A stretch of DNA of 64,000 bases from Phoenix dactylifera (Eukaryota; Streptophyta; Magnoliopsida; Arecales; Arecaceae). The DNA lies in NCBI RefSeq assembly GCF_009389715.1, contig NW_024067995.1, positions 124,001 through 188,000 of the forward strand, written 5' to 3'. Below, in pieces: positions 5,239 through 52,361 of the stretch. The notes below the pieces were generated by a model. The model ran no database searches and was not told where the DNA came from. It worked only from the letters and a program-made list of their open reading frames with translations. The translations under genes and the position numbers were made by a program. Within the stretch, counting starts at the first letter, position 1. Each line of letters begins with the position of its first letter.

Positions 5239-5406
5239 ATACACGTACACCAAACAAATGAACACCTCTAAACCAGCGGGTGTTCTTTTTGGTCGACTAA
5301 ACAGATACCTATTTAACCATATGCCAAAAAATCGCTTTGTGGAAGCAATTCACAAGATGAACCATATGTGCTGACACTTGCACTACGCCGTTTGTGGCCT
5401 TCTTCA

Positions 5407-6165: not shown

Positions 6166-6241
6166 CTCTTTCCTATACGAAATTAAATCTTTAGAGGAAA
6201 TGAGGGTATTTGGCGGCATAAGAAGGCGTGGAGAGGATCGG

Positions 6242-6249
6242 TATATATA
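6242..6249 (-). promoter_or_regulatory. Probable TATA box of GLP A
   Basis: TATATATA lies about 80 bp upstream of the start codon, reading on the minus strand. The same motif is at the same distance in copy B. Position and sequence fit a plant core promoter; the transcription start itself is not seen. Confidence 0.6.
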
Positions 6250-6687
6250 GACCAGGAGATGGAACCAGTCATGCTCTAATAACGCAGTAGAAGAGTCTAT
6301 GAGGTTAGGTATGAAGGTTTCACACAAATTACTTGCTCTGCAGGCCGTAGATGCAGTCTATTGTGTGTATCCAGTCATAGAGATCAAAAGGTTTGATAGT
6401 CTTGGTGTTAGAGCACATGGTCAAAAAAATGTAAATGTATATAAATATATACCCACCTCTGGCAGACCCCAGAACCACAAACTGTTCGCTAGAGGCGGAG
6501 CCATATTGGGTCCTCATATACTTCACGATTTTTTATTTTCCGACACAAAGGCCAGAAATTCTGAGTTCTGGAATATCTCCATTAAAAACAAAGACTCATA
6601 AATTAAAAAAAACTGAAGATTTTTAAAAAATTCTGATGAAAAAGATAGCAAGAATAAAGAATCTAAAATTACGCACTCATGCACATG

Positions 6688-6747
<60 letters not shown>
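6688..6747. repeat. (TA)n(TG)n microsatellite
   Basis: A run of TA units passes directly into a run of TG units. At the equivalent place in segment B (33044-33112) there is a pure AT run, so the locus has changed since the duplication. Confidence 0.97.
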
Positions 6748-6748
<1 letters not shown>

Positions 6749-7348
6749 TATTAAACACTATAAAAGAGTGAATAATCTCTATAGAAATAGATTTCAAAGT
6801 ATTAGATATTCTTTATCTCCCTAAAACCATTCCATTTTGCCTTTACATCTATCTCATTTCCGACCTTTTTATACCGCCCTATTCACCTACATATTAAACC
6901 CATGAAATACCGTTCAACAGCACTTAATCGGATTTGTGATGCCTTTTTATTTAGAGTCAAGAGGAAATTTTATTCATTGGCCCTTCTTCTGAATCCAAAG
7001 AGTAAGGAGTTTTCTATATATTAGCAATTTAAAAAATTGCTTTGATCTAAAGTTCAGTCGTTAGTAAAGAAATTATTACAAATCTAGCTACTTTATTATA
7101 AAGAAAGAAAGGATTCTAGGAAAATTATATTATTGGAAGTTGGAAATAGTCGGGAGGTCATCAATCCTCGCTTTATACAAGCCACTTCTTAGGCTTAAAA
7201 AGAAATTCTATCAATTACCCCTCCAAGGCTTCAAAAGATAAATTGCGCATCGGGACCGACTCACATTCCTTAAAGCAGAACAAACCAACACCCGTTGAGA
7301 AATACAACTCTTGGAGGAAGAACAAGCAGAGCTGGAATGGAATAACAA

Positions 7349-7694
7349 CACTACAGGAAAAGTAGTACATTCTGACTCCCATGTGCTAATGCTAAAAAGA
7401 AGCGTTAGCAATTTAGTCACCTTGCAAAAATTTGCCGACACTTTTTAGTGGCGTCGGGGCAGGAATTACACTAAGACGACGCTTATTAGCACCGTGCGAA
7501 ACCAACCTGCTAATATTGAATTCTGACGATGCTTAAAAGCGTCTTTGGAGACCTAGTCGAAACCACGATGCTTTGAAGTGTCGCCCTAATATTGGCTTCC
7601 AACAATGTTTAAAAGCATCGTCGATAGCCAATCTTAGGACGACACTTCTATGTGTCATCGGAAGCTAGTTTTATTCCCAAATAGCCCGATCACC
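7349..7694 (+). mobile_element. Terminus of an older CACTA-type element (copy in segment A)
   Basis: The block begins CACTACAGGAAAA and is followed by about 330 bp of short repeats such as GACGATGCTT/AAGCGTC in both orientations, the usual subterminal structure of CACTA transposons. No matching TTTTCCTGTAGTG end was found before 12793. Either the far end is lost or it has diverged. A second copy is at 33716-34061, which shows that it pre-dates the segment duplication. Confidence 0.6.
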
Positions 7695-8339
7695 CCTTCC
7701 ATTGACCCTTCTCAGCCCTAAATTGACCCTTCTCAGCCCAAATAACTTTGCCTTCGCCTCCTCCTCGCCGCGTTGGTCCCCATCTCATTTTCCCTCCCTT
7801 AGATGGCCTCCTTCTCCTCCACCCCCTCTTCCTCCTCCTTCTCCTCCTTCTGGCCGGTCTCCTTCTCCTCCTCTCCCTCTTCCTCCTCCTTCCGTCTGCC
7901 CGTACCCACCGCAAAGCTTCCCTGCAGATGTATCGCCTTTTCCTCCTCCCCATCTCCGCTTGCCTTCTCCTCCTCCCCCCCGTCTTCCTCCTCCTTCTCC
8001 TCCTTTTGTCGAAGCCATTTACTGATCCGGTCGACCGCCCTCCTCCGGCTGACCGCCCTTCTCTGCTGCGGATCTCAGCCGGCATACATCCATGCTGGTG
8101 ATTTTGCTTGATGCCTTAATATTCTGTTTATAGCTCTAATTTGTGCTTAATATTTAAACTTGCTCTATGTGCTTAATATTCTGTTTGCCGGCTAATATGT
8201 ATTTAAATTGTACATGTAATTGCGTCTGTTAACAATGCTTATACAGATGTTTTTTTCTTTACTTAATACATTGTTCCATTCCTTTATTAACTTTATCTGA
8301 ATAAATTATCTTTTTTACTTTGGGCTAAATTCTGATCAT
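7695..8339 (+). other. Pyrimidine-rich block, possible captured or ancestral first exon
   Basis: About 7695-8050 is a C/T-rich stretch (CTCCTCC, TCCTCCTTC), followed by a GC-rich end near 8098 and then AT-rich DNA. This shape resembles a plant 5' UTR or first exon followed by an intron, but all open frames here are low-complexity and none matches a family I know. The block recurs at 51972-52361 plus 63630 onward. I do not assign a gene. Confidence 0.4.
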
Positions 8340-33715: not shown

Positions 33716-34061
33716 CACTACAGGAAAAATAGTACATTCCGACTCTCATGTGCCGATGCTAAAAAAAAGCGTTAGCAATTTAGTCACCCTGCAAAAATTT
33801 GCCGACACTTTTTAGTGGCGTCGGGGCAGGAATTACACTAAGATGACGCTTATTAGCACCGTGCGAAACCAACCTGCTAATATTGAATTCTGACGATGCT
33901 TAAAAGCGTCTTCGGAGACCTAGTCGAAACCACGACGCTTTGAAGTGTCGCCCTAATATTGGCTTCCAACAATGTTTAAAAGCATCGTCGATAGCCAATC
34001 TTAGGACGACACTTCTATGCGTCATCGGAAGCTAGTTTTATTCCCAAATAGCCCGATCACC
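33716..34061 (+). mobile_element. Terminus of the older CACTA-type element (copy in segment B)
   Basis: Starts CACTACAGGAAAA and matches 7349-7694 throughout. The younger 17.9-kb CACTA element inserted into the older element's sequence at 34062. Confidence 0.6.
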
Positions 34062-34150
34062 CACTACAAGAAAATGGGATTTTACCGACCCTTTTTTGCC
34101 GACGCTTTTTACAAGCGTCGGCAATTTTCCGTTCAGCCCCAACATATGCG
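34062..34150 (+). repeat. CACTA 5' terminal and subterminal repeats
   Basis: TIR CACTACAAGAAAA followed by GCCGACGCTTTTTACAAGCG, an inverted pair of the motif repeated at the far end. These are the presumed transposase-binding sites. Confidence 0.85.
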
Positions 34151-34179
34151 TCGGGCCCTTCCCCTCCTCCTTCCTCCTC

Positions 34180-34563
34180 TCCAACGATGAACCGTACATA
34201 TTAATAATTAGTACCTCTTCCCTCCTCGTGCTCGCCTCCATCTTCTTCTTCTACTCCTTCGTCGCCTCTCTCGAGAAGTTCCTCACCTCCCGGCGCCCTG
34301 TCTCCGCCGGATCTTCCTCCGTCGCGGCCGACGCGGGCGGAGCCGCGGTAAAAGCGCTCGATGACAAGATCTGGGGGAAGGAAACAGGGAGGCTTTATGG
34401 GGATCCGGCGGATCCGTGGTCGGGGCTGTCGGTGGTTAGGGTTTATGTGTACGAGATGCCGGCCAAGTTCACCTACGATCTTCTCTGGCTCTTCAGGAAT
34501 ACCTATAAGGAGACGACGAATTTGATGTCCAACGGAAGCCCCGTTCATCGCCTCATCGAACAG
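34180..34563 (+). pseudogene. Captured exon 1 of a GT47 exostosin-family glycosyltransferase
   Basis: The frame encodes a hydrophobic type II membrane anchor (LLVLASIFFFYSFVASL), a stem, and the start of an exostosin domain with RVYVYEMPAKFTYDLLWLF and TYKETTN...GSPVHRLIEQ. This resembles the plant family of Arabidopsis At5g16890, Golgi enzymes of cell-wall glycan synthesis. It ends at a canonical donor CAG|GT at 34563/34564, in phase 0. No in-frame ATG lies upstream of the anchor: the open frame runs back into CACTA subterminal sequence, so the native start was lost. The rest of the catalytic domain is absent from the window. It is a gene fragment, not a functional gene. Confidence 0.82.
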
Positions 34564-35062
34564 GTTTTTTTGCTCTGCCTCTCTTTTTCTTTATCTTGAT
34601 GCTCCAAGAACCCTAGTTCTCAGCTTCTTTTCGGGTTTCTTGTCTTTGCGACGTACGACAAACCCTTGTTTGAGGTTATTGCTTGGTTGTCTTTGTGAAA
34701 TTGCAGTTGTTGGTATGTACTGCTTGTGAGGCCGCAATCAGAGCGGAAAAGAATGAATACTTCAGTCCATACAAGATGAAATGAAAAATCTGCATAGATA
34801 GAGAGGTGCAGAGAAAGGAGGAAAAGAGAAGGAGAAATGGTAGGGATCGTAGCACGCTTCCAAGGCTATATGACGAGACCCCAACCCTCTCTTCTGGTAC
34901 CACTTCTTTCCCTTTTGCTCTCCTTCCTGCATAAAAACAAAAAGCTTTCCTCTGTTCTCTATTCCTCCTTTGTTGAGTCATAAGCAATTAGGAAGTAAGG
35001 TATTACTTCATTCTCTCTCATTCTCAGCTCCAAAACCTTGTGCTCTGGGCAACTTACTGTAA
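34564..35062 (+). other. Captured intron-like DNA between GT47 exon 1 and the gypsy insertion
   Basis: T-rich after the splice donor, then mixed non-coding sequence. I find no further GT47 exon here. The last bases TCACT (35063-35067) are the gypsy target duplication. Confidence 0.5.
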
Positions 35063-35077
35063 TCACTTGTGAGACAT

Positions 35078-35299
35078 GGGGCTGAAGTCGGCAGCCCTCG
35101 CCGACTTCAGCCCCGATTCATTTGGGGAAGGAGCCGGAACAGAGGATCGCTTGGGCGATCCTCTCCGGCTCCTCCGGAGGGGCAAACAAGGCAAGGGCGC
35201 CGCGAGATTCCCGCGGCGCCCCTCCTAGTCCATCCACGGCCGATTCACGGCCGTGAATCGGCCGTGGATCTCGCTTGACCGCCGCGATTTTCGCGGCGG
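35078..35299 (+). promoter_or_regulatory. Cluster of five perfect or near-perfect palindromes in U3
   Basis: Hairpins lie at 35078-35114 (15-bp arms, 7-nt loop) and 35130-35172 (18 paired bases, a 3-nt bulge). Others are at 35196-35220 (9-bp arms), 35232-35269 (a perfect 38-bp palindrome) and 35279-35299 (9-bp arms, 3-nt loop). They stand just upstream of the TATA element. The 3' LTR has all five at a constant offset of 6805, with one change in the 38-bp palindrome. Confidence 0.9.
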
Positions 35300-35311
35300 A
35301 GAACCGTTACG

Positions 35312-35331
35312 ATGGGGCTATAAAGCCCCAT
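35312..35331 (+). promoter_or_regulatory. LTR TATA box in the loop of a hairpin
   Basis: ATGGGGC-TATAAA-GCCCCAT: TATAAA lies between perfect 7-bp inverted arms. The 3' LTR copy is at 42117-42136. The truncated relative has lost the symmetry. This is the probable core promoter of the element. Confidence 0.75.
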
Positions 35332-37014
35332 CTACTTCTTCCCTAGGGCACCACCGAACCCCCTTCCTCTCCTCCTCCTCCCTCTTCTTCCTCTGCTCTT
35401 GCCTCCCAAGTGGCTGGCGGGCCGCCGGATCCACCACCATCACCACCCGTGCCCTCCCCTGTTTTGGGATCCACTTCCCTTTCAGAAAGCGTCGCCGTCG
35501 CCGTTGCCGCTGCTTGACATCGGACCGAGCCTCCCTCGGCTGAGATCCGCCACCTCCGTCGACTGTCGGTAAGCATCCCTCCTCCTTGCTTTCATGGATT
35601 TTGTTCTCCCTATTTCAGCCCCAAGCAACCGAGTCGGTTGCTTCTCCTTCCCGTCGGCCACAGCAACAGTCGCCGGCCGCCATGGCGGCCGGCTGGCCGT
35701 CGACCGAGAGGTGCCCTCCGGCCACCTAGGTCGGCCCCCCAGCCAGCCCTTTCCCCTCTCCCCTCTTCCTTCTCTTGCTATCCAACTCCCCTGTCCATGG
35801 GGAGTTTGGGGAAGATGAAGGCCCATCGTGGGCCGAACTGGGCCAACTTGGGCCTGGTTCACTAGGGGCCCAACTTGGGCCCAGTTCAATAGTGTTGGGC
35901 CCAGATGGGCCATAATCTTTTGTGGGCCCAATTTGGGCCCAGTTCAGCCTAGTTTGGGCCCTATTTGGGTCGTACCCTTTTGTGGGCCCAATCCAAATCC
36001 GAAACCCAGTCCAAACCCGAAACCCGTTTCGAACCCGAACCCGAACCCGAAACCCAATAGTATTATTTTTGATTTTTTGCTTAGCTCTGAAATTAACAAA
36101 GAAATTAATTAAATGTTAACAGGTGAACCTGATCCGCCTACCTGAAGTAGGAATTAAGCGAGAAGAGGTAAGTAACTTAATACTTCAAGTGTGATTTTCA
36201 AATAACTAGATTAAATTCTGAAATATGTTTTGTATTTAGTAAAATGGGTCTGGCATGTTAAATTTCATTTGAAAATTATGCTCTAAAATCCGTAAACTAT
36301 GACTGAAAAATTTATGAAATCTATTTATATATATATATATATATTCTCAGCATGGCTATGATATGTTCTGTTCTATTCTGGCCCCGCCAATGGGGATTAT
36401 ACGTTGGACCTGTCGACTTGTAATCTGTGAGGAACCGGTTTCGACACCGCGCCACCGGTAATTAGAATAGTAGTTTCTGAACACCGTTTCCACCGGTGAC
36501 TAACAATAGTGGTTTCTGGCACTCTGTGCAACCCATGCCACTGGGTTACGTGGCCGTAGCCTATCATGTTGAGATTATGATATTAGAGTTTTATAAAAAC
36601 AAAAATGATATTATTTGTGATTTGTTTCAAACATTGTCCTGTATTTTGATCTGATATGCTCTGACCCCACTCTGGGGTATTTTGTGGCTTGCTGGGCTAG
36701 TGTAGCTCATTATTCTGTTTTCTCCATTTTTCAGATCCAGAGGCTTGATCGCACGGGATTGGGGAGTGCGTTAGAGTTTCCGATGATTCTTCAGTTATTG
36801 GCATTTTAGTTAGTTTAGTTTGGACATTTGAATTATGTTGGCATATGTTATTTTGGAATTTTGTAAGACCGCTTTTGAACAATTTAAATAATTATGTTAT
36901 CTTTGAAAAGCTGTATCTACTTTGATATGATCTGCTGCCTTGCGCACCCGTGCGGCCCGCCGTGTGGGCGTGCGGCGTCTGCCGCGCCTCGGGCTCGGGG
37001 CGTGACAGATTTGG

Positions 37015-37026
37015 TGGTATCAGAGC
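37015..37026 (+). other. Gypsy primer-binding site (initiator tRNA-Met)
   Basis: TGGTATCAGAGC, seven bases after the 5' LTR, matches the initiator tRNA-Met complement typical of Tekay-like chromoviruses. Confidence 0.92.
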
Positions 37027-37224
37027 TTAGGTTTCAGATTCATAGGGATTATGTTTGAAACAGTCATATTTGAGCCTAAGTTTTAAGATCCTTAAGATTC
37101 GTTGGAAAGTTGAGAGATGGGGTAGTAACTAGACAAAGGGATAATGTTCATTTGCTTTGATTATTTTTGTATTATTCTATTTGGATAAATATTTTTAAAA
37201 TTTATATATTTTCATTGAATCAGA

Positions 37225-40200
37225 ATGCCGCCTCGCCGTGTCCGTAGCTTGAATCGGATGGTTGGGCGCTCTCGGGGAAGAGCCCCCACTAACCAAACGG
37301 GCGAGGCATCGCATAACTCAGGGCCCCAGGGTCAATCAACTCCAGAAGCTGCTGCCGGAAATCATACTCGGGTGCTCGAACTGATCGAGGAGGTCGTCGG
37401 GTTAGTACGCCAACAGAGGCAACAACCTCAGCAACCAGTCCAGCAGGATGTTGCTCCTCCTGAGCAAAGAAGGAGTATAGCAGAATTCAAGAGAATGGCA
37501 CCTTCGGCTTTTAAAGGCACCACTAGTCCTCAAGAGGCCGAAACCTGGATAAATGAAATGGAGAAAGCCTTCAGGGCAATGGAGTGCACCGATGAAGAGA
37601 AGGTCAGATTTGCCACCTATATGCTTCAGGACCGAGCTCATCATTGGTGGATGTCTATGGAGCGCACATTGGCACCCGAGCAGGAGGCGCTTACCTGGCA
37701 GAGATTCCGCACAGCATTCTACTCCAAGTATTTTCCATCCAGTCGCCTGAGGGAGCTACAGAGGGAATTTCTCAATCTGAATCAAGGAACTATGACTGTA
37801 GATGAGTATGAGGCAGAGTTTGACAGGCTATCTCGGTTTGCTCCCACCCTCGTCATGGATGCAGAGTCCCGGATGAGGAGATTTGAAGAAGGATTGAAGC
37901 CTCACTTACGTCGGAGTTTGGCCGCAATACACTCGACAAACTATGATGATCTGGTAGACAGGGCTAAGAATCTGGAAATTGTCTGGAAAGAAACCTATGA
38001 TGCCAAAGATAAGAAACAAAAGAAGAGAAGCAGAGATTATGATGCTCGCAGTGGACAAAATTCTAGCAAGACTGCAAAATCACATAACCAATCTTGGCAA
38101 TCAGGGAAGCAAGGATCTGATGGAAAGACTATTCAGCAAGAGAAGCATAAGTGTGATGCATGTGGTGGTATGCATAAGACTGAACACTGTAGACGATTAT
38201 CTGGTGCTTGTTTCAGATGCGGCCAGCAGGGTCATAAGGTAGCTGAGTGTCCTCAACAGGACCTTCGATCAGTTCAGAGGCCTCAAACTTCAAGAAACCA
38301 GCAAGTGCAAGCTTCTCCTGCTCCGGCTCAGTCAGCTCAGCCTTCTTCTCCTAAGCAGCAGAAAGGGGGGAGACTGCGCACACGGGGTCGTATTTATGCA
38401 CTGACTCAGCAGGATGCTCAGGCATCCAACACGGTGGTGTCAGGTACATTGTCAGTTGCTTCTGTTTATGCTTATACACTATTTGATTCTGGTGCTACGC
38501 ATTCCTTTGTGTCATCTACATTTGTGCAAAAACATGACCTGCCTTATGTGCAATTAGAGTATGATCTGCATGTTAGCACTCCTGCCGGGAGCGGGATGAT
38601 TGGTAACCAGGTCTGCAAGACTTGTCCGATTCAGATAGTAGGTAGAGACTTGCCTGCTGATTTGATAGTTATAGATATGCATGACTTTGACATAATCCTC
38701 GGTATGGACTGGTTAGCATCACAATTTGCCACCATTAATTGCCATGAGAAACGGGTAAACTTTCAGATCCCCGGAGATACCGAATTCAGCTTCGTAGGGA
38801 GTGGTGCTTATACCTCCCCTCGAGTTGTCTCCGCTATGCAAATTAAGCGGCTGCTTAGAAAGGGGAGTATGGCGTATATTGCCACAGTGGTTGATACCAG
38901 ACAATCAGATCAAAGATTGGAAGATATTCGAGTAGTGAATGAATACCCTGATGTCTTTCCGGAAGACCTTCCTGGCTTGCCACCAGATAGAGAAATTGAA
39001 TTTGCAATTGATTTAATTCCTGGTACCACACCAATCTCTAAGACCCCCTATAGAATAGCTCCAGCTGAAATGAAGGAATTAAAGGAGCAGTTGCAGGATC
39101 TTCTTGATAAGGGTTTCATCAGACCTAGTGTTTCACCTTGGGGAGCTCCAGTCTTATTTGTAAAGAAGAAGGATGGTAGTATGAGATTATGTATTGATTA
39201 TCGAGAGATAAATAAAGCAACAATAAAGAACAAGTATCCTCTACCAAGAATTGATGACTTATTTGATCAGTTAAAGGGTGCTCAGATATTCTCTAAAATT
39301 GATCTTCGTTCTGGGTACCATCAATTAAAGATAAGGGCTGAAGATGTGCCTAAAACTGCTTTTCGTACTCGTTATGGGCACTATGAATTTTTGGTCATGC
39401 CTTTTGGACTGACAAATGCCCCTGCAGCTTTTATGGATCTGATGAACAGGGTGTTCAGACCCTTTCTGGATAAATTTGTAGTAGTCTTTATTGATGATAT
39501 CTTGATCTATTCTGGGAGCCAGGCCGAGCACGAGCAACATTTGAGGTTAGTACTGGAAACCCTAAGACAAGAGCAGTTGTATGGTAAGTTGAAGAAAAGT
39601 GAATTCTGGCTAGACAGTGTGATGTTCCTAGGGCATGTAATATCTAAAGAGGGTATCTATGTGGATCCAAAGAAGATCGAGGCAGTGGTCAACTGGAGCA
39701 GACCCAATAGTGTTACTGAGATTCGCAGCTTCTTGGGCCTAGCAGGATATTATAGACGATTTGTTGAGGACTTTTTCTCTATTGCTGCATCTTTGACTCG
39801 ACTAACTCGTAAAGGAGTTAAGTTTGAGTGGTCAGATAAATGTGAACAGAGCTTCCAGGAGCTTAAGCAACGTTTGGTGTCCGCTCCCATCCTTACCCTT
39901 CCCTCTAGTGGCGAAGGTTATACCATCTACAGTGATGCCTCAAAGAAAGGATTGGGTTGTGTACTGATGCAGAATGATAAGGTTATTGCATATGCTTCCC
40001 GACAATTAAAGTCATATGAGGAGAACTACCCCGTTCATGATATGGAACTTGCTGCTGTTGTGTTTGCATTAAAAATTTGGAGACATTATTTATATGGTGA
40101 ATCTTGTAAGGTGTACACTGATCACAAAAGTTTGAAATACCTTTTTACCCAGAAGGAACTAAACATGAGACAGAGAAGATGGTTAGAGTTACTGAAGGAT

Positions 40201-41826
40201 TATGATTTGTCTATTCATTACCATCCGGGAAAAGCTAATGTGGTAGCAGATGCACTGAGCAGAAAATCCACTGGTAGTATTGCTGCCTTACTCACCTCTC
40301 AGAGGAAAATTCTGGAAGATCTGAGGAGAGCAGAAATTGAGGTATGTTGGCATGACTCTGATGCACAATTGGCAAACTTACGTGTCCAACCTACCTTGAA
40401 AGAGAGGATCAGGATTGCTCAAGCAGATGACCCTAAGTTGCAAAAGCTTAGAAGTGATATTGAATCAGGTTCTCAATCAGAATTCAGACTTCATGAGGAT
40501 GGATCATTGAGATACAGGAACAGAATGTGTATTCCAAATGACTCCGATTTAAAGAATGAAATTATGAAGGAAGCTCATAATACTGGATATACAGTGCATC
40601 CTGGGGGTACTAAGATGTATAAGGATTTGAAAGGCACATTTTGGTGGAATAATATGAAGAGAGAAATTGCACAATTTGTGGCTCGGTGTTTGACGTGTCA
40701 GCAAGTTAAAGCAGAGCATCAAAGACCGGCAGGGTTGTTGCAGCCCCTACCACTTCCTGAATGGAAGTGGGAACACATCACTATGGACTTTGTCTCCGGG
40801 TTGCCTCGCACTCTTAAAGGTTATGATGCTATATGGGTGATTGTGGACAGATTGACAAAGTTGGCACACTTTTTGGCATTCAAAGTAGGAATGACCTTGG
40901 AAAAGTTTGCAGAGCTCTACATGGAACAAATAGTGAGGTTGCATGGAGTACCCGTATCCATTGTTTCCGATAGGGACTCGCGGTTTGTATCTCACTTTTG
41001 GAATAGTTTGCATAAAGCCTTGGGGACCACTCTGAGCTTCAGCACAGCTTTCCACCCTCAGACTGATGGCCAATCAGAAAGAACCGTTCAGACCTTGGAA
41101 GATATGCTAAGAGCTTGTGTAATGGATATGAAAGGTTCTTGGGACCGTCACTTGCCTTTAGTTGAGTTTGCATATAATAACAGTTACCAGGCAAGTATTC
41201 AAATGGCACCTTATGAGGCTCTATATGGAAGAAAGTGTAGATCACCTATCTGTTGGGATGATGTTGGTGAAAGAAAAATTATGGGCCCCGAGATTGTGCA
41301 ACAAACAGTAGAGAAGATCCAGCTGATCAGGGAACGCCTCCGGATAGCTCAGAGCAGACAGAAAAGTTATGCAGATAATAGAAGAAGGGAATTGGAATTT
41401 CAAGTCGGAGATCATGTGTTTCTGAAAGTGTCTCCTACTAAAGGGGTGATGCGATTTGGAATACGCGGAAAACTTAGTCCACGCTATGTCGGCCCCTTTG
41501 AAATTCTGGAAAGAGTAGGAGCAGTAGCTTACAAATTGGCACTTCCACCTTCACTGTCTGGAGTTCACAATGTTTTTCATGTTTCCATGCTAAGAAAGTA
41601 TATTCCAGATATGAGCCATGTGGTAGAAGTGGCTCCCTTGCAGCTTAGAGAAGATTTGACATATCCTGAGCAGCCTGTACGTGTGGTTGATAGAAAAGAG
41701 CAAGTGTTGAGGAGGCGCACGATTCCTTATGTTAAGATCCAGTGGAGCAATCACTCAGAACGAGAGGCCACGTGGGAGCTGGAGGACGAGATGAAGGAAA
41801 AATATCCGGACCTTTTTGCAAGCTAA
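37225..41826 (+). CDS. Gypsy gag-pol polyprotein, 1533 residues, uninterrupted
   Basis: ATG at 37225 opens one frame to the stop at 41826. Order: retrotransposon gag (about 85-270); two zinc knuckles, [13 protein letters not shown] (310-322) and [14 protein letters not shown] (329-342); protease DSGA (421-424); reverse transcriptase (about 620-800) with FIDD (755-758); RNase H; integrase with an HHCC finger (about 1115-1165) and DDE core (Asp near 1188 and 1249, Glu near 1285); and a C-terminal chromodomain-like stretch ending in EKYPDLFAS. The protease-RT-RNase H-integrase order is that of Ty3/gypsy. I see no stop, frameshift or loss of a catalytic residue. The product would form virus-like particles, copy its RNA and integrate; chromodomains of this clade target chromatin. 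Confidence 0.96.
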
Positions 41827-41860
41827 GGTATGTTAAATTTCGAGGACGAAATTTTTTTTT

Positions 41861-41872
41861 AGGGGGGAAGAA
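41861..41872 (+). other. Gypsy polypurine tract
   Basis: AGGGGGGAAGAA, preceded by a T-run, ends directly at the 3' LTR. Confidence 0.9.
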
Positions 41873-43817
41873 TGTGAGACACGGGGCTGAAGTCGGCAGC
41901 CCTCGCCGACTTCAGCCCCGATTCATTTGGGGAAGGAGCCGGAACAGAGGATCGCGTGGGCGATCCTCTCCGGCTCCTCCGGAGGGGCAAACAAGGCAAG
42001 GGCGCCGCAAGATTCCCGCGGCGCCCCTCCTAGTCCATCCACAGCCGATTCACGGCCGTGAATCGGCCGTGGATCTCGCTTGACCGCCGCGATTTTCGCG
42101 GCGGAGAACCGTTACGATGGGGCTATAAAGCCCCATCTACTTCTTCCCTAGGGCACCACCGAACCCCCCTCCTCTCCTCCTCCTCCCTCTTCTTCCTCTG
42201 CTCTTGCCTCCCAAGTGGCTGGCGGGCCGCCGGATCCACCACCATCACCACCCGTGCCCTCCCCTGTTTTGGGATCCACTTTCCTTTCGGAAAGCGTCGC
42301 CGTCGCCGTTGCCGCTGCTTGACATCGGACCGAGCCTCCCTCGGCCGAGATCCGCCACCTCCGTCGACTGTCGGTAAGCATCCCTCCTCCTTGCTTTCAT
42401 GGATTTTGTTCTCCCTGTTTCAGCCCCAAGCAACCGAGTCGGCTGCTTCTCCTTCCCGTCGGCCACAGCAACAGTCGCCGGCCGCCATGGCGGCCGGCTG
42501 GCCGTCGACCGAGAGGTGCCCTCCGGCCACCTAGGTCGGCCCCCCAGCCAGCCCTTTCCCCTCTCCCCTCTTCCTTCTCTTGCTATCCAACTCCCCTGTC
42601 CATGGGGAGTTTGGGGAAGATGAAGGCCCATCGTGGGCCGAACTGGGCCAACTTGGGCCTGGTTCACTAGGGGCCCAACTTGGGCCCAGTTCAATAGTGT
42701 TGGGCCCAGATGGGCCATAATCTTTTGTGGGCCCAATTTGGGCCCAGTTCAGCCTAGTTTGGGCCCTATTTGGGTCGTACCCTTTTGTGGGCCCAATCCA
42801 AATCCGGAACCCAGTCCAAACCCGAAACCCGTTTCGAACCCGAACCCGAACCCGAAACCCAATAGTATTATTTTTGATTTTTTGCTTAGCTCTGAAATTA
42901 ACAAAGAAATTAATTAAATGTTAACAGGTGAACCTGATCCGCCTACCTGAAGTAGGAATTAAGCGAGAAGAGGTAAGTAACTTAATACTTCAAGTGTGAT
43001 TTTCAAATAACTAGATTAAATTCTGAAATATGTTTTGTATTTAGTAAAATGGGTCTGGCATGTTAAATTTCATTTGAAAATTATGCTCTGAAATCCGTAA
43101 ACTATGACTGAAAAATTTATGAAATCTGTTTTTATATATATATATATATATTCTCAGCATGGCTATGATATGTTCTGTTCTATTCTGGCCCCGCCAATGG
43201 GGATTATACGTTGGACCTGTCGACTTGTAATCTGTGAGGAACCGGTTTCGACACCGCGCCACCGGTGATTAGAATAGTGGTTTCTGGACACCGTTTCCAC
43301 CGGTGACTAACAATAGTGGTTTCTGGCACTCTGTGCAACCCATGCCACTGGGTTACGTGGCCGTAGCCTATCATGTTGAGATTATGATATTAGAGTTTTA
43401 TAAAAACAAAAATGATATTATTTGTGATTTGTTTCAAACATTGTCCTGTATTTTGATCTGATATGCTCTGACCCCACTCTGAGGTATTTTGTGGCTTGCT
43501 GGGCTAGTGTAGCTCATTATTCTGTTTTCTCCATTTTTCAGATCCAGAGGCTTGATCGCACGGGATTGGGGAGTGCGTTAGAGTTTCCGATGATTCTTCA
43601 GTTATTGGCATTTTAGTTAGTTTAGTTTGGACATTTGAATTATGTTGGCATATGTTATTTTGGAATTTTGTAAGACCGCTTTTGAACAATTTAAATAATT
43701 ATGTTATCTTTGAAAAGCTGTATCTGCTTTGATATGATCTGCTGCCTTGCGCACCCATGCGGCCCGCCGTGCGGGCGTGCGGCGTCTGCCGCGCCGAGTC
43801 GGGCTCGGGGCATGACA
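41873..43817 (+). repeat. Gypsy 3' LTR
   Basis: 1945 bp with the same termini as the 5' LTR. It differs by about 20 substitutions, mostly C/T and G/A, plus small indels including 3 bp near 43795. The palindrome cluster is at 41883-42104 and the TATA hairpin at 42117-42136. Confidence 0.96.
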
Positions 43818-43822
43818 TCACT

Positions 43823-44602
43823 GCCACACTTTCTAGGGATTTATCCATACCTTTATTGGGGAATAAGCACTGTAAAGATTAGCTGCCTTAAGTAATCTTT
43901 TCTCAAATTTGGATACTATTACTTTTGTTTATGTCGGAAATTGCATTGAAAAATCTTATGAAAATATGCATGCATTTAATGATCTGCACACTTCTGTACA
44001 TGGTTGTGTATCCATCTGCCATTTATGCTTCCTATTGGTGCTGGATCGCATATTAATTTCTCAAATGGAATTTTGCCTGTATCTAGTCCTGTTACATACT
44101 CCAGTTGATAAATTGTAGTTAATTGTGAGCTTTTTCAAATCCATCGATGCCATAAAGTACAAATTTGATTGGCACAGGTAGTATCACTGTCTGCTGCATA
44201 AAGACACTAACCATGCTATAAATATTATCTGGGTATTCTGAAAGGTTAAAATGTTTTGTCGAGTGAGGAACTTACAAGACCTCTTTCTGCAGGTACTTAA
44301 TTGACAAGTGGTGAAATCTGATTCTGCAACTATTAAGGTACATTTTTGACACTTAGTCACCATACTTTGCTGGTCCAGTGGATTAAGTTAGGAGACTACT
44401 GAAATGGCTCTGGTTGCAATTTGTATGTTTCACTGTTCTTACAAATTTTGTGCTTCTTGTAACTGAGGGTTGACATTGTAATGGAACAAAGTTTTTGATT
44501 GTACCTTAAACCTGTGTTTAGTACTCGAGGAATTATGGGATTCCATTACGTAGTTAGCAGATCCTTTGTTATTCAGTGATCGCTATGGTGTTGTGTCTTG
44601 TT
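43823..44602 (+). other. Captured host DNA between the gypsy and hAT insertions
   Basis: Non-coding and T-rich, like plant intron sequence. A possible short exon CTGCAG|GTACTT...ATTAAG|GTACAT (about 44294-44337) has splice-like edges, but I cannot assign it to a gene. Confidence 0.4.
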
Positions 44603-44662
44603 GTCATGCTTAGAGATGGGCACTGGGCCGGGCCGCCCACGGCCCGGCACGGCACGGCACGA

Positions 44663-44785
44663 AGCGGGCCGTGCCTGGCACGGCCCGCCAGCTACAGTGA
44701 CGGGCCGTGCCTGGCACCGCCCCTTTGATAGGGCCGTGCTGGGCTAGCGAATCCTGGCCAGCGGGCCGTGCCAGGCACGGCCCGC
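44663..44785. repeat. hAT subterminal palindromes, transposase-3' side
   Basis: Units with arms GGGCCGTGCC and GGCACGGCCC around a single central base occur at 44666, 44702 (one arm imperfect) and 44763. The first two are 36 bp apart. Further partial GGCACGGCCCG half-sites follow to 44930. Confidence 0.85.
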
Positions 44786-45260
44786 TTCGGGCCTGGGCCG
44801 GCACGGCCCGGTCTAGGCACGCGGGCCAAGCACGGCACGGCCCGCGTGCCAGCACGGCACGGCCCATAAGGGCCTGGGCCGGGCTGGCACGCGGGCCTGG
44901 CACGGTCCGGGCCTGGGCCCGGCTCGGCCCGATAAAATTTTTTTAATACATTAATAAATTATGAACACTAAGAAATCTTGATTTATGAATATAAAGCCAC
45001 CTTAATGGTGGGGGGTTTGGCATAGACCCCTACCAGTTTATTAATTTCAATCAAAATGGTACATGAAGGGAGGTTTGGACCTTGGTCTGACCTCTAGATT
45101 CTAGAATACAATAAGAAACTAAGAAAGGGCCGAGGTTTGGACCTTGGTCTGACCTCCAGAATACAATAAAAATGTACAATTATAAAAAATTAAGAAATCT
45201 TACTAATCATCAGTGATTCAGTGAATCAGTATTCACTCTTCAGTCTTCAGTCTTCAGTCT

Positions 45261-47285
45261 TCAGTCTTCAGTAGTGTTTGTATCATCATCATCAGAGGAT
45301 GTTGTATTATGTCCACCTTTATCTTGAAGTCTTGCCTCAGCATCCAGCCAATCCTTGAAGCAGAGAAGCATCTCCACCGTTTCGCCCGTCATCCTACTTC
45401 TCTTTTCGTCAAGAACACGCCGACCTGCACTAAAAGCGGATTCCGATGCTACCGTGGACATCGGCACAGCTAAAATATCGCGTGCAATTGCAGACATAAC
45501 AGGATATTGATTTCTAACACTCTTCCACCAAGATAATACATCTAGATTCTCTATTTGATTTTCATCATATGCAGACTGAAGATCATTTCGTAAATAAAAT
45601 TCTAGTTCACTACTTAAAGATGAAGAAGATGAAGAGGAACTTGAAGCATGTGTGTGTCTTCTCTGTGCAATGAATGAAAAAATAGATGACGAACGAGAAC
45701 TACTAGAAGGAGGAATAGAGGTTTGTATTTGTGTTCTAGATCCACGAATTTTTTCATCATATATAGCATAAATATCATAAAGAAGTTGTCTTACCTCATC
45801 TTTAGCAGATTCAGCATCTTGATTCATATTTTCAGCGTATGCATCAAGTAAAATTAGCACGCCATTTAATTTAACTCTAGGATCAAATACAGCAGCTAAG
45901 TTATGCATAGGATATATCCTGTCCCAATACTCATTCCATTTAGATTCCATTAGGTGAATAATAGGCATTAAAACATCATCATATCTATGTTCTGCAAATT
46001 TTTGACTAATTATATATGCTTGTTGTAAAAATGAACATGAAGTAGGGTAATAAATACCAGAAAGAACATTGGTAGCATTATAAAAACTAAGCAAAAAATC
46101 TTCCAAAATTTTTCCTTTATTCCAATCAGTTTCAGTCAATGTAAATCCTAATCCACGATCATTAATATATGCACTTAATAAATTTTTATATGGGTATGCA
46201 TCATGTATCATGCTATATGTGGAGTTCCAACGAGTAATTACATCAAGTTTAAATTTTTTAAAACGTTTACCATGATTTATGCATAATTCCTTAAATTCTT
46301 GAAGTCTTGATCTAGAAGCATGAATAAAAGAAACTGCATTTCTAATTTTTGAAATCACATCTTGAATCATGCCCATGCCAGCTTGAACAGAAAGATTTAA
46401 GATATGACATGCACATCTAATATGCAGTAAATTTCCATCTAATATGGGATGCAATGAGTCTCTTAATAATACAACAGCAGAATTATTATTAGATGCATTA
46501 TCAAAAGTAATAGACATAATTTTATCATTAATATTATATGAACATGCAGTTTGATAAATTATATTTGAAATTTGTTGCCCAGAATGTGGAAAATCAAAAG
46601 CACGAAAAGCAAGAATACGTTTATTTAATTGCCAATCATTATCAATATAATGAGCAGTAATGGCAATAAAAGAATTACTACCTACAGATGCTGACCAAAT
46701 ATCAGAAGTTAATGAAATTTTTACATTTAAAGTAGAAAGTGTTTCAATTAAATTTTGTTTCATTGCTAAAAAATTGGTCATAGCTACTCTTCTAAATGTA
46801 CGCCTACTAGTTCTTTTGTAAGCAGGTTGTAGGTTTAATTGAACATATTCTTCAAAATTAAAAGATTCACATAAACTAAAAGGTAATTCATCCTTGACTA
46901 TCCATTTTACAAGTGCTTTTCTTTGATTTTCATGATTATATGCAAAATTACCTACAAGTAATCCCCCTTGTATATTAAGGCTACTTTGAGTTTGAGCATG
47001 AGAATCATGCATCCTATGACTCTCTTGATGTCTTTTTAAATGCCCTGTTCCCCCACTACTACTACAACTATAAAGTTTGGCACATTTTTTACATTTAGCT
47101 TTCCAGACTCCCTCAACCATAACTCTATCAAATTCATTCCATACAGTACTAGTCCTCTTACGAGAAGAGGTTTGACCTTCACTCGGTTCACCAGTTCTAG
47201 AGGAACTAGGAACAGGGGGTTGGGGATTAGTTTCTTCCCCCTCAGAAACAGGAATGCCAAACTGACTTTCCTCAAAAGATGACAT
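45261..47285 (-). CDS. hAT transposase with BED zinc finger (674 residues)
   Basis: ATG at 47285, 674 residues, within the usual range for this family (Ac/Tam3 and RICESLEEPER-like). The N-terminal BED finger has W49 and W61, C65, C68, H86 and H90. The RNase H-like core has TSDIW (D195), SITFDN (D262), the CACHILNL motif near 291-298 and, after the long helical insert, ASESAFS with E615, giving the D-D-E triad. The C-terminal hAT dimerisation region spans about 580-655 (LSWWKSV, LAVPMSTVASESAFSAGRR). Serine-rich and aspartate-rich stretches lie near 530-570 and at the C-terminus. A (TCTTCAG)n run overlaps the gene's 3' end near 45238-45270. It should bind element ends and catalyse cut-and-paste transposition. 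It could also be a domesticated gene, but intact TIRs and TSD argue for a live or recent transposon. Confidence 0.95.
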   Translation of the reverse strand: MSSFEESQFGIPVSEGEETNPQPPVPSSSRTGEPSEGQTSSRKRTSTVWNEFDRVMVEGVWKAKCKKCAKLYSCSSSGGTGHLKRHQESHRMHDSHAQTQSSLNIQGGLLVGNFAYNHENQRKALVKWIVKDELPFSLCESFNFEEYVQLNLQPAYKRTSRRTFRRVAMTNFLAMKQNLIETLSTLNVKISLTSDIWSASVGSNSFIAITAHYIDNDWQLNKRILAFRAFDFPHSGQQISNIIYQTACSYNINDKIMSITFDNASNNNSAVVLLRDSLHPILDGNLLHIRCACHILNLSVQAGMGMIQDVISKIRNAVSFIHASRSRLQEFKELCINHGKRFKKFKLDVITRWNSTYSMIHDAYPYKNLLSAYINDRGLGFTLTETDWNKGKILEDFLLSFYNATNVLSGIYYPTSCSFLQQAYIISQKFAEHRYDDVLMPIIHLMESKWNEYWDRIYPMHNLAAVFDPRVKLNGVLILLDAYAENMNQDAESAKDEVRQLLYDIYAIYDEKIRGSRTQIQTSIPPSSSSRSSSIFSFIAQRRHTHASSSSSSSSSLSSELEFYLRNDLQSAYDENQIENLDVLSWWKSVRNQYPVMSAIARDILAVPMSTVASESAFSAGRRVLDEKRSRMTGETVEMLLCFKDWLDAEARLQDKGGHNTTSSDDDDTNTTED

Positions 47286-47692
47286 ATCTATGATTAATTC
47301 AAAAAATAAAAACTAACCGCAAGGAGGAATTGAGTAGAGGGTCGGAGGGCAGAGGCAGCGCCGAGATTCCGAGCTTCCTCTTGTGCTCTCAACAGAAGCG
47401 ACCTTCTCTTCTCAACAGGAACCTCCTCTTGTGTAGCACTTGAACAAACTAAAAATTAAATTGCTAGAAGAGCACTTTAGAAGAGAGAAATAATAGCAGT
47501 AGAGAAGGAGAGAATGAGAGGTTTGGTGTGGTGAGAATGAGGGAGGAATGGGCTATTTATAGAAGCCCAAAAAATTTTTTTTCCCAAAATACCCCTCAAT
47601 TCAGCCGTTATAGGACTGTTGGGAGGGCCAAAACCGTCTTTTTCCCGAAAATAGCCGTTGGAAACGGCTATTTTCTTCCCCCCTCTCCAGAC

Positions 47693-48003
47693 GGGCCGTG
47701 CCAGGCACGGCCCGTCTGGAGCCGTTACGGGCCGTGCCAGGCACGGCCCGTTTAGAGACGTTGCGGGCCGTGCCTGGCACGGCCCGTTACCGCCCGTTAC
47801 GGGCCGTGCCTGGCACGGCCCGTGCCGTGCCGTGCCCGGCCCGGCCCACCAATAGAGGGGCCGGGGGCCGGGCCGGGCTTGCCTTCCGTGCCTCACGGGC
47901 CGTGCCAGGCACGGCCCGCTTACCCCGGGCTTGCCTTCCGTGCCTCACGGGCCGTGCCAGGCACGGCCCGCTTCATAAGCGGGCCGTGCCAGGCACGGCC
48001 CGT
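47693..48003. repeat. hAT subterminal palindrome array, promoter side, 36-bp period
   Basis: Seven copies of the 21-bp palindrome (10-bp arms GGGCCGTGCC, single A or T centre) start at 47693, 47729, 47765, 47801, 47897, 47949 and 47981. The first four are spaced exactly 36 bp. The array lies between the transposase start codon and the element end. Confidence 0.92.
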
Positions 48004-48364
48004 TTAGAGTTTTGGCCCGGGGGGCCTGGGCCGGGCCGGCCCGGCACGGCCCGTTGCCCAACTCTAGTCATGCTCTTTGGAACTAGAATGTTTGGTCTTT
48101 ATATGGTTTGGAACTTCAAAAAACAAAATCTTCAATTGTTATTTGATTGAAGAATTAATTATCTTCAACCATTGCTTTTCTTTGGTTTTTTCCTTTTCAT
48201 TTCTAGGTTTGAGTTTGTTCTTTCCTGGATCTCTGTTTCTTCACTATTGTAATCCTCAGACAGGATTACATCATTTTGCATCATTTTCTAATTAAGTATT
48301 TTGCATCATTTTGGTTTTGACATTTAGGGTTATGCTTGTTCTTGTTTCCTACATGCATATGCAG

Positions 48365-50977
48365 GATTAAAAGACGTAAAGTGGAGAGCTTGGAGGGCAT
48401 AAAAGAGCTTCAGGGATCAGTGATGATCGAGACAAATCAAGAAAATATTGGTATTATTGGTTAGTATCTTGATTGTGAAGCAAAAAAAAAATTCTGTTTT
48501 CCAAATATAGGAATCTTTACTTACCAAACACAAAAAGGAAACTCTAAAAATACTGTTTTCAGAAATGAAATCTAGGTTGAGACAATACGTTCATTCAAAA
48601 AATACACATTTGAAGAAATGGAGAAATACCAGAGCAAAATTTGTTAGCCTATGCTAGGATGTTTTTATATTATAGATTGCTTGTTATGATCAAAGATACA
48701 ATAATTTTAGTCAAGAATTGAGTTTAATCATGGAAGGAGAATCAACTTATTGATTAGAATAGAAATATAAAGTACATGTTGCAGCTATTTCAGCTACATA
48801 TAGTAATGTTGAGAATGCTAATTATAAAGATAGGAATGGGTCTTTGCAATTAATAATTTTCATTTTGCATATACTGCTTAAGCCTCTTGGAAGTCGTGCT
48901 TTTCAATTCCCTGTCTACTTTTCCTGCTCGTCCTATACTTATCTTTCCTTACCTGGCCGACCATAATAAGGCCATAGCGAAATGACCTGTAGCCGAAGGT
49001 GTTTACTATTCATATTTGTAATTGATGCGGAGATTTGCAAAAAATTGAGAATGTGGGTTTATAACTTCGTGACATGTCAAACTCTCAAAGAAGAATACTG
49101 CCTTTACTGAAAAATTGGAAGTACTTTTGTAATAAGGAAGTAGATGACAGGGAAGTAATAGCATGTAAATCCATCCCAAATAGTTGGAGGAAACTTATTT
49201 ATGGTTGTGGTTTTGTGGAAATATAGGCAGGGAAGTGGACATCCGCACACACATATACACAGAAACACACACCCAAAAAAAAAAACAAAAAGCAAAAAGA
49301 GGTACTAAGCTAGCAGGTGTGGAAATGGTTTTTGCAGAGATTTCAAAGTGGTTGCAGGACCCTAGATAGCGTTTTCAAGTTCTAGGTTCTATAGGTCCAC
49401 GCATGGTGCCCAAATCCAAAAGACCAGTAGATGTAGTTGAAATAGTTGACATGATGGATCAATTTTTGTGTAACACCTTATTAGAATAACCAGATAAATT
49501 GTTTCTTTTGATTTTTTATCATATTGTATGCAGCATATGGATCCTGTCGTGTTGGAAGTAATGCAGATCCAACTTGTTTGTAGAACAAAAATTATCCCAC
49601 TTTCCTGTTTGTGAATGAGCTTCCTCAAAACCATGATTACTTCAAGCTCCTTCAAATTTAATCATAATATTTAAATATTTAGGAGCCCGATAAGAACCAA
49701 TCTCTTTCACATTGTTAGACTTTGCGGAGGCTATAATCCTTAGCTTTATGAAGACTGAAGGTTTGCTCAAGAATTTGGCAGAGGATGGTCAAACAATTAC
49801 TAACTAATATTTTGTGTTTTGACAATGTCCTATAATCCATTCTACTTTGTGTGCCACTCTTAAGTGCAGAATCTTGGGAAGTACAAAAACATCTATTGTC
49901 TGAAAGTGCATAACTAAGTTCATTGTAGAACACTAAATTGTCCAACCAAAAAAGTGAAAGTTAAAAATTTTGCAGTAAACGAACTTATCTTTCAACATTT
50001 GTTTAGTAACTGTTCCGTGACTTTTTCAGTTATTGGGTTTCAGAGTTCAGATATGATGGTGGTCAAAGACACTTCACCACAGGCTTCCAGACTTAGTCAC
50101 CTGATTAAGAAATCAGAACAGGTCAAAGCTATATGTGATTTGAAAACGAGCCGCTCAAAACAGTCATTGTATGTAACGTAGGAATCATAAAAAGATTTGA
50201 AAAATATTTGAGTCAGAAGGGAAACGGTACTCAGCACTGTTTGATATTCTTATAGCCATGGCCTGCTGAGCATTCCCAAAGCATGTCCCAGGTGTTCCAT
50301 GATTTGGGGAACTAGATTGAGTCATTTTCCAAGATGCATTTCTTAGCATGTAAGGTTTCTGGTAAATATGTTTTTGAATAGTTTTCGAGTTCTATAATAT
50401 CACTATCACGGTGCTGGCTATTTCTAAGGATACTTCATCTTCAAGAAAGCAATTTTTGTCAAAAGAACTTCGACACTATCTTGGTTACGTCCTTTTTTTG
50501 ATTCTTATGGTATAGCATTTGAGCATGCCAAGAATAGATAAATTTCTTAATTTAGTAACAACTTGTCAGTGTACAGCATCAGAAAGGCACTTTGGCATTG
50601 TGCTTTATTTTACCGCCTCAAAATTGATTACTTTTATATGATCTTTTACATTTTAGTTTTTTACTATAAATTCTACTTTTAGTGCTTTAGGAACCTTCAA
50701 CTATTATTTTGCTGCTGTAATTAAACTTTGGGTCATCTATGCTTCTACATCTTAGTAATTGTTAAAGTTTTTACATAGTGATGAGCAAGACTTACACTTT
50801 ATAGTCAACTAAAGCTTACGCAAGCAAACTGAATATTCTACTACAGGTACATCTAAGAAACTGGCAGATGAGGATTCATGCCCTCCACATCCTGGATTTT
50901 ATAAAGGCTTGTGCTTGAGATGTGGTCAGCTAGTGGAGGATGATGGGCCTATGCTTTCACTTGACTACATTACTAAG
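48365..50977 (+). pseudogene. Captured exons of a CPL3/CPL4-like RNA polymerase II CTD phosphatase
   Basis: Exon 48365-48459 (95 nt) follows TATGCAG and ends ATTG|GTTAGT. It encodes IKRRKVESLEGIKELQGSV and more. Exon 50847-50977 (131 nt) follows CTACAG and ends AAG|GTGCAA. It encodes SKKLADEDSCPPHPGFYKGL, CLRCGQLVEDDGPMLSLDYI and TK. Joining them restores a Gly codon, so the reading phase is kept. The CxHPG..xxxC..CGQ pattern is the region just before the FCP1-like catalytic domain of plant CPL3/CPL4 CTD phosphatases. The catalytic DxDxT domain is not in the window. The intron between is 2387 bp. Only the N-terminal part was captured, so no enzyme can result. Confidence 0.8.
48460..50846 (+). 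other. Intron of the captured CPL-like fragment
   Basis: AT- and T-rich, with no TE that I recognise. A stretch at about 50030-50180 is open (LSHLIKKSEQVKAICDLKTS) and lies between splice-like sites, but I could not place it in the CPL family. Confidence 0.5.
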
Positions 50978-51633
50978 GTGCAATGCTCAAAATTATACTA
51001 CAGAGCTGTAATATAATCATGATATAGTAACTTTATGTTTCTTATATAATGCAAATGGTAGTGAGGTGGACTGGGTTAGCAGCTTAATGATGCTTACCTA
51101 GGTGTATAAGCGATGTTTGTCCTCGAAATGGTCTGGAATGTGGATAACTTATTTTCATTTTAGGCTCACATCCTGCTTCCACATATTTAATTCTAAATAA
51201 AATGGTCACATCTTGCATACTGGTGCCAAGAAGTGCCCATTTTTCACAAATTCAGCCTGGTTAGCAGCATGGAGTCGTTGTCAAATTTGAACAGGTTGCA
51301 TCAGAAACCATATGCAGCTGACAATCTGTCATTCTTATTATTCTGAACTCAATCACCACAGGGTCCTGCATCCTGTCAATTTTCTCCTGCATTGTTTTGG
51401 GTTGTGGTGTAATTCTGTGTGCACCATACTTTCATATTCAACCTGTTTGGATGTGATCAGTGTTCAGAAACATGAACCCCAACTCAATTGTACCTAACCC
51501 CTTCTCATACAAATCCTACTTCGTTCAGATTTTTTTTTTAATGTTAGTAATGGTTAAGGGTTCTATGATATGAACCCTTAATTTTTTATAATTTATATTC
51601 GTATTTTTATTTTTTTTAAAAAAATAGCAATCT
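50978..51633 (+). other. Captured intron-like DNA after the last CPL-like exon
   Basis: T-rich non-coding sequence. I searched by eye for the next CPL exon (an FCP1-type DxDxT motif) and found none before the CACTA end. Confidence 0.5.
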
Positions 51634-51968
51634 CGACGCTTTAAAGCGTTGGTAAATAAAAACTGTAGGACGCCCTACGCCGACGCTTTAAAGCGTCGGT
51701 AAACTTGAAGCCTACGCCGACGCGTTGGTAAACTTTTGCCGACGCTTAAAATCGTCGGCAATTCTGTTTTTGCCAACGCTTTTATGAGCGTCGGAAAATC
51801 CCTGTTTTTTCCGACGCTTTGTGTTAGCGTCGGCAAAAACTTTTGCCACTCCGATATCGCCAACGCTTTTGCGACGCTTCTATTTGCGTGGCGGGAACTT
51901 TAGCCGACGCTTATAAGCGTCGGTAAAGATTATAAAAAGCATCGGAAAAGATGAATTTTTTTGTAGTG
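51634..51968 (+). repeat. CACTA 3' subterminal repeats and TIR
   Basis: About ten copies of CGACGCTT or AAGCGTCGG in both orientations, for example GACGCTTTAAAGCGTCGG, end in TTTTTTTGTAGTG. Similar but diverged units form the older CACTA termini at 7349 and 33716. Confidence 0.9.
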
Positions 51969-52361
51969 ACCCCTTCCATTGACCCTTCTCAGCCCTAAAT
52001 TGACCCTTCTCAGCCCAAATAACTCTGCCTTCGCCTCCTCCTCGCCGCATTGGTCCCCATCTTATTTTTCCTCTCTTAGATGGCCTCCTTCTCCTCCACC
52101 CCCTCTTCCTCCTCCTTCTCCTCCTTCTGGCCGCTCTCCTTCTCCTCCTCTCCCTCTTCCTCCTCCTTCCGTCTGCCCGTACCCACCGCAAAGCTTCCCT
52201 GCAGATGTATCGCCTTCTCCTCCTCCCCCCCCTCTTCCTCCTCCTCCTCCTTTTGTCGAAGCCATTTACTGATCCGGTCGACCGCCCTCCTCCGGCTGAC
52301 CGTCCTTCTCTGCTGCGGATCTCAACCGGCATACATCCATGCTGGTGATTTTGCTTGATGC
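51969..52361 (+). repeat. Segment B, second part (pyrimidine-rich block)
   Basis: Starts with the duplicated ACC and matches 7695-8114, with a short deletion in the CTCC-rich stretch. It ends at GATGC, the target duplication of the Athila-like element. Confidence 0.9.

Follow-up and report, generated by a model that had tools for sequence, protein, structure and literature searches.

Stepwise pickup of host gene pieces by a probable Pack-CACTA transposon family of date palm

The window analysed here is a stretch of 64,000 nucleotides of date palm (Phoenix dactylifera) DNA, contig C348 positions 124001-188000, and the date palm genome (773 Mb in 2391 contigs) was searched with it. The window contains a transposable element with the marks of the CACTA (En/Spm) type: CACTA-type terminal inverted repeats (TIRs), a 3-bp target-site duplication (TSD) and subterminal repeats in both orientations. 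The left end, CACTACAAGAAAAT..., is at 34062 and the right end, ...TTTTTTTGTAGTG, finishes at 51968; the TIRs start with CACTA, the element ends being CACTACAAGAAAA and CACTACAAAAAAA. When one mismatch was allowed, CACTACAARAAAA was found at 4 sites of the window (0.28 expected), its two exact occurrences being both element ends, and GCCGACGCTT 18 times against 1.15 expected, with 13 of the 18 sites falling at 34098-34122 and 51679-51924, i.e. at the two ends of the element. Subterminal units of the right end are both inverted and direct, and the window copy lacks left subterminal units that are still present in the C5, C1769 and L012 copies described below.

Self-comparison of the window showed that 5236-7695 matches 31591-34062 and 7692-8114 matches 51969-52361, both matching stretches being copies of one unit with a germin-like (cupin) frame. 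The empty site at about 7692 carries a single ACC, the element-bearing copy one ACC on each side, and the flanks joined without the element align to the empty site across the insertion point. Both the insertion and its precise ends, 34062-51968, are thereby proved. An earlier note on this DNA, which had proposed a CACTA element with TIRs, a 3-bp ACC duplication and subterminal repeats, is thus borne out by the end-pattern counts and by the empty site.

The same note had placed exon 1 of a GT47 exostosin and two exons of a CPL-type CTD (carboxy-terminal domain) phosphatase in the element, both on the plus strand and with introns retained, and this also holds. The first fragment is of ARAD1 type (91-92% to Cocos and Elaeis ARAD1 over 85% of the query); it begins inside the coding region, the start codon and first codons being absent, and shows a 78-bp in-frame deletion compared with the parent gene. 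By whole-genome protein search, this parent was located at C12:3445348-3450586, where the Cocos ARAD1 protein is covered exon by exon with residues 223-229 uncovered. The other fragment comes from CPL4: a 72-residue query of both exons matched Phoenix dactylifera CPL4 at 95%, and a whole-genome search with this Phoenix protein returned one locus with nearly all 482 residues, C51:998823-1012270 on the minus strand, residues 368-378 being outside any listed match. Intactness of both parents was judged from this exon coverage. The CPL4 stretch is colinear with the intact C51 gene, introns included, except for 69 bp absent from that gene, and their Kimura two-parameter (K2P) divergence is 0.0075; the ARAD1 fragment likewise matches its parent at the nucleotide level, intron included. 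Pfam alone names neither fragment (0 families in a first scan, GT47 only at E 0.057, below the cut-off), so their identities rest on protein similarity and on the parent loci. A PDB search with the GT47 fragment gave no meaningful match. Two C16 loci, tried as the ARAD1 parent, were rejected, the C16 match beginning only at 34967. A stray match to ARAD1 residues 487-518 (88%) was seen at C3:16985304-16985399, apart from the C12 gene. On the CPL4 side, the deposited Phoenix protein (P0123), compared with that of Elaeis (P0124), has intron-like residues ahead of the captured exon, and its gene model may be wrong there.

A third captured stretch, matching the two C16 loci, and older family-internal DNA between the captured pieces had been overlooked by the note (Table 1). 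The C16 loci carry about 630 bp extra at 44418-44421, absent from the element. Two transposons interrupt this third piece. One is a Ty3/gypsy element with one open gag-pol frame (37219-41823), whose long terminal repeats (LTRs) diverge by K2P 0.0109 (20 transitions, 1 transversion); the other is a hAT element, whose minus-strand transposase frame (45264-47285, 674 aa) includes a hAT dimerisation domain. In the copy on contig C5 both sites are empty, with a single TCACT and a single GTCATGCT; both transposons are therefore later insertions, as had been supposed. A copy on C1530 (L021), seen without its left end, has the same right flank as the window copy (first 63 bp identical, 99.3% over 1,431 bp), with the Ty3 3′ LTR in the same place and the hAT site empty. 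It is probably, and most simply, the other haplotype of the window locus, in which case the hAT would probably be polymorphic and younger than the Ty3. With its open transposase frame and its absence from this probable second haplotype, the hAT may have moved recently.

Table 1. Features of the element and its insertion site (window positions; CPL4 exon ends are approximate, read by eye from the sequence)
Feature	Position	Strand	Remarks
Whole element, probable Pack-CACTA	34062..51968	+	17,907 bp including nested insertions; TIRs, ACC TSD, empty paralogous site
Left TSD, ACC	34059..34061	.	
Left TIR and subterminal repeat region	34062..34149	+	Common to many family copies
Family leader	34150..34212	+	Also in copies without ARAD1; shortened in window copy and C5
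Captured ARAD1-type GT47 exon 1 (to 34563) and about 40 bp of intron 1	34213..34604	+	98% to C12 parent
Family-internal stretch X	34605..34966	+	Shared with ARAD1-free copies; compared with L015, lacks 366 bp at 34649/34650
Third captured piece, part 1	34967..35067	+	Matches two C16 loci
Ty3/gypsy LTR retrotransposon	35068..43817	+	TSD TCACT; LTRs 35068-37007 and 41873-43817
Third captured piece, part 2	43818..44610	+	First 5 bp are the duplicated TCACT
hAT transposon	44611..48066	-	TSD GTCATGCT
Third captured piece, part 3	48067..48262	+	Opens with the duplicated GTCATGCT (8 bp); identity to the two C16 loci 97-98%
21-bp scar	48263..48283	+	Left by a templated capture junction and the subsequent loss of about 1.1 kb
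Captured CPL4 stretch, two exons with introns	48284..51588	+	3,305 bp, 99% to intact C51 gene
CPL4 exon, AG/GT borders kept	48365..48459	+	Sequence against P0123 (Phoenix CPL4) and P0124 (Elaeis)
Next CPL4 exon, TSKKLADEDSCPPHPGFYKGLCLRCGQLVEDDGPMLSLDYITK	50847..50977	+	Read from sequence and protein match
Right subterminal repeats and right TIR	51589..51968	+	
Right TSD, ACC	51969..51971	.	
Empty paralogous site (the germin-like-gene unit of the flanks in a second, tandem copy that lacks the element)	5236..8114	+	

Judged from these matches, the pieces derive from three or more distinct host loci, among them two known genes. An account in which nothing was inserted, the two genes being ordinary host neighbours or brought together by an assembly join, meets the empty site inside the window and the parents on two different contigs: across the date palm genome the GT47 and CPL genes are not adjacent, and the pair is chimeric. 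The chimera also recurs on C5 with its own GAA duplication, in rearranged form on C1769 and in part on C686. We give this account practically no credence.

Other copies with the same termini are numerous. The 28-base left-end pattern, with up to 3 mismatches, occurs at 97 sites genome-wide (14 exact, 12 with one, 16 with two and 55 with three mismatches), and the reversed pattern used as a control at 0; many of the three-mismatch sites look like related subfamilies. Among 11 copies fetched, both ends were at the expected places in L011, L012, L014, L015 and L016. The right end of the C5 copy (L009) was found in L022, the outermost left bases of the C1769 copy (L017) are gone, and L010, L013 and L019 had no intact right end within the stretch fetched. 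A matching 3-bp TSD was found in six of the eight elements with both ends in hand: ACC in the window, GAA in C5, and TCG, ACT, ACG and TAC among L011, L012, L015 and L016. L014 shares the L011 site but is shifted by one base and gives no exact match, and in L018, where both ends are present, the duplications do not match. The different flanks of the copies show past movement. As side observations, the C5 copy (L009 1382-8168) has its ARAD1 exon interrupted by a separate insertion of about 6.8 kb, bordered by a short duplication of about ACGATCT, and at C11:14025551-14054501 four related left-end matches, about 9.6 kb apart and in one orientation, resemble a tandem array of a CACTA-bearing unit.

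The ARAD1 exon 1 fragment was found at 10 element loci (C348, C1, C1809, C1769, C622, C4, C176, C5, C554 and C2), those on C554 and C1809 resembling one single insertion. All 10 copies checked (8 elements compared together, plus C5 and C1769) have the same 78-bp deletion, and the fragment was therefore captured once and then amplified. Both CPL4 exons are present on C348, C1530, C5 and C1769, and just one on C686. These further chimera loci, the probable allelic copy on C1530 and the sister elements with other genes had all escaped the earlier note.

The statement in that note that no transposase is visible agrees with our listing of frames. Outside the nested elements, the longest frame is that of ARAD1, with 178 codons, and 8 of the 23 other frames of at least 60 codons were scanned with Pfam and gave no match. 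A genome scan with PF02992 yielded 534 first-look candidates; the 150 that were scored include many with long open frames. A related autonomous element could not be tied to the ends of the element among these 150. Within 15 kb of a left end a single PF02992 pair was seen (C1059, 8.4 kb), with a three-mismatch end and the transposase on its outer side, and two same-strand pairs on C458 and C13 are 22-24 kb apart. A family of 776-aa transposases at C905 was also considered as partner and rejected, the terminus nearby reading CACTACCAGAAAA, a different end. CACTA transposase frames of this size (776-779 codons) number sixteen on C905 and other contigs, one of them interrupted by an inner stop; their close scores suggest an autonomous family that is young and has different ends (CACTACCAGAAAA beside the C905 copy).

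Since no transposase was found in the element, its internal DNA is host-derived with intact parents elsewhere, and it belongs to a multi-copy family with matching ends, we consider it very probably a non-autonomous Pack-CACTA element of date palm, which collected host DNA stepwise and spread by cut-and-paste transposition. Mobilisation would have been in trans, by some CACTA transposase.

The sister elements carry different cargo. In L018 and L019 the ARAD1 exon is absent and stretch X present; L018 has a piece of an RGLG/copine-domain gene (PF07002, 2.4e-9; PDB RGLG5, 9.6e-13), L019 is alignable to it there, and 210 bp around this piece are found again in other copies (scores were computed for 40 of 417 candidates). 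ARAD1 is present in L011, L013, L014 and L015; a scan of L015 showed an amino-acid transporter frame (PF01490, 7e-19) in a part to which L011, L013 and L014 can be aligned. A candidate source of the stretch including the transporter part is C11:7417907-7418815 (96%). In L010, L012 and L016 ARAD1 runs up to 34484, where a PWWP exon takes over (PF00855 at 8.3e-6 in a scan of L012, narrowly above the cut-off; L010 and L016 alignable), for which C11:2229604-2230082 (93%) is a candidate source.

The order of events in the chimera can be read from the C1769 copy. It is itself rearranged, with part of the CPL4 stretch absent, and is without the leader deletion common to the window and C5 copies. Its order is ARAD1, X, C16 piece, X2, CPL4 and right end: the C16 piece is followed by a 26-bp filler, a stretch X2 (99% to L015 1600-1830), also present in A-type elements, and a CPL4 piece extending about 0.85 kb further into the 5′ intron (99% to C51). 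As X2 lies between them, the C16 and CPL4 pieces were added separately. C1769 retains 1,099 bp at this place, so the window and C5 copies, only K2P 0.0024 apart, later lost about 1.1 kb. Accordingly, the 21 bp at 48263-48283 were rejected as the original C16/CPL4 junction and are the scar of this later deletion, the undeleted arrangement being kept in C1769.

Four junctions show microhomology: 2 bp (GA) between ARAD1 and X, 2 bp (CC) between X and C16, 3 bp (CCT) between X2 and CPL4 and 5 bp (TTTTA) between CPL4 and the right end. At the C16/X2 junction the 26-bp filler repeats ATTTTCATAAATTT from the adjoining X2, and its GGATTAC mirrors the GTAATCC immediately before the filler. The captured pieces occupy positions where sister elements keep other internal sequence. 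According to the published model for Pack-CACTA and Pack-TYPE elements, as given in the parts of PMC8903248 and PMC13317346 at hand, two family members flank a host gene, lose their inner ends and move as one unit. This fusion predicts internal captured DNA between conserved ends, as seen, and permits deletion of the inner ends; yet it calls for one contiguous flanking locus per event, and our pieces come from C12, C16 and C51. It also often predicts relics of inner ends. None was found at the inner junctions of the window or visible in the printed C1769 junctions, and the only matches to end or subterminal patterns within 34123-51678 were two decamers, each with one mismatch, inside the Ty3 LTRs. 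The pieces moreover replace family-internal sequence by way of 2-5 bp of microhomology or templated filler. With such junctions and no inner ends, ectopic copying in gap repair is favoured and fusion of neighbours appears unlikely.

Capture by ectopic copying would have taken place at a gap left by excision or breakage, with microhomologies of 2-5 bp priming the template copying. The ARAD1-free form with stretch X, as in L018 and L019, would be the older starting state. ARAD1 exon 1 entered once, and the C16 and CPL4 pieces were added separately, in place of the internal sequence that sister elements keep. The resulting chimera is present at several loci (C5, the window and C1769); part of it was lost by an internal deletion, and the window copy received the Ty3 insertion and, probably later, the hAT insertion. 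In its fullest version, this scheme has one date palm CACTA family gain host modules serially by microhomology-primed template switching in gap repair, from RGLG in ARAD1-free forms to ARAD1 and then, on separate branches, to the amino-acid transporter, the PWWP gene or the C16 locus plus CPL4. The intermediates would be kept in one genome and capture readable junction by junction. We see about even chances for this version.

Several points weigh against the Pack-CACTA interpretation or parts of it. The mechanism is deduced from five junctions, a small sample in which overlaps of 2-3 bp can be due to chance. No autonomous partner was identified among the 150 PF02992 candidates scored, against 97 left-end sites; with 150 of 534 scored, a partner may have been missed. 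The left subterminal region of the window copy is shortened, and this copy may itself be immobile now. The third piece may stem directly from somewhere other than the C16 loci (K2P 0.029 between window and C16a, 0.025 between C16a and C16b). The parent divergence of the CPL4 piece (0.0075) differs from that of the C16 piece (0.029; Fisher p = 6e-5), and the C16 piece also differs more between the window and C5 copies (6/602 sites, against 8/3304 in the CPL4 piece), so a locally raised rate may account for part of its higher divergence, and the claim of separate capture rests on the C1769 copy.

Has the chimera become a gene, with its ARAD1 and CPL4 exons spliced into an expressed protein or a selected regulatory RNA? 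Splice borders are kept, the ARAD1 frame is open and, in soybean, fragments within Tgm-Express1 are spliced into chimeric transcripts (PMC1947982, parts at hand). Against this, the ARAD1 frame has no ATG before MPAKF, and direct joining of the ARAD1 exon to the first CPL4 exon creates an immediate stop (GAT TAA). Compared with its parent, ARAD1 has 2 nonsynonymous and 1 synonymous changes in 104 codons, too few to test selection. Nonsynonymous counts for L010, L012 and L016 were alignment artefacts, the ARAD1 exon being left at 34484, and are unused; L013 has one stop in the frame. A working gene is thus most improbable: the carried exons are probably passengers, most likely without host function.

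As to the surroundings, the minus-strand germin-like frame at 31765-32337 has the element about 1.7 kb upstream. Sequence at the insertion site (33716-34061, with a copy at 7349-7694) starts with CACTACAGGAAAA and contains GACGCTT-type repeats; its target may have been one end of an older CACTA element, whose other end was not found. Further LTR retrotransposons of the window lie at 52362-63629 (LTR K2P 0.0229), in the right flank of the element, and at 13521-23688 (LTR K2P 0.0060).

Two models of gene pickup by CACTA elements compete, fusion of neighbouring insertions and faulty gap repair. The latter, with filler DNA, is reportedly that of Rubin and Levy. A family that keeps intermediates, parent genes and an empty site allows these models to be compared at single junctions. 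The combination of the ARAD1 exon with several partner genes amounts to exon shuffling in progress in a palm, and such gene-carrying copies can mislead gene annotation. CACTA gene capture, including multi-gene Pack-CACTA, is already known. For palms, no report of CACTA or Pack-type capture was found among the papers listed in open-licence literature searches, judged by title and abstract start.

The comparisons that follow refer to the parts of the cited papers at hand. CACTA elements of Chenopodium similarly contain host fragments, but they keep transposase domains and hold single fragments (Neprosin, 80 bp of AP2); their capture mechanism is credited to Rubin and Levy (PMC8978399). Tgm-Express1 of soybean, also of CACTA type, resembles the date palm element in holding fragments of several unrelated host genes (five, in 5.7 kb), their exons and introns retained. 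Genes and species differ, and Tgm-Express1 was shown to give spliced exons to transcripts whereas the date palm element is known from sequence alone (PMC1947982). For the Pack-CACTA and Pack-TYPE transposons of Arabidopsis, rice and maize, PMC8903248 describes a fusion model proposed for Arabidopsis Pack-CACTA, maize Pack-CACTA containing pieces of several loci, and stepwise gain in sister groups of Pack-PIF and Pack-Mariner clusters. In comparison, the date palm family shows the order of several captures through its sister copies, and its junctions favour microhomology template copying over fusion of neighbouring insertions. What stands out is this unusually complete record of stepwise capture.

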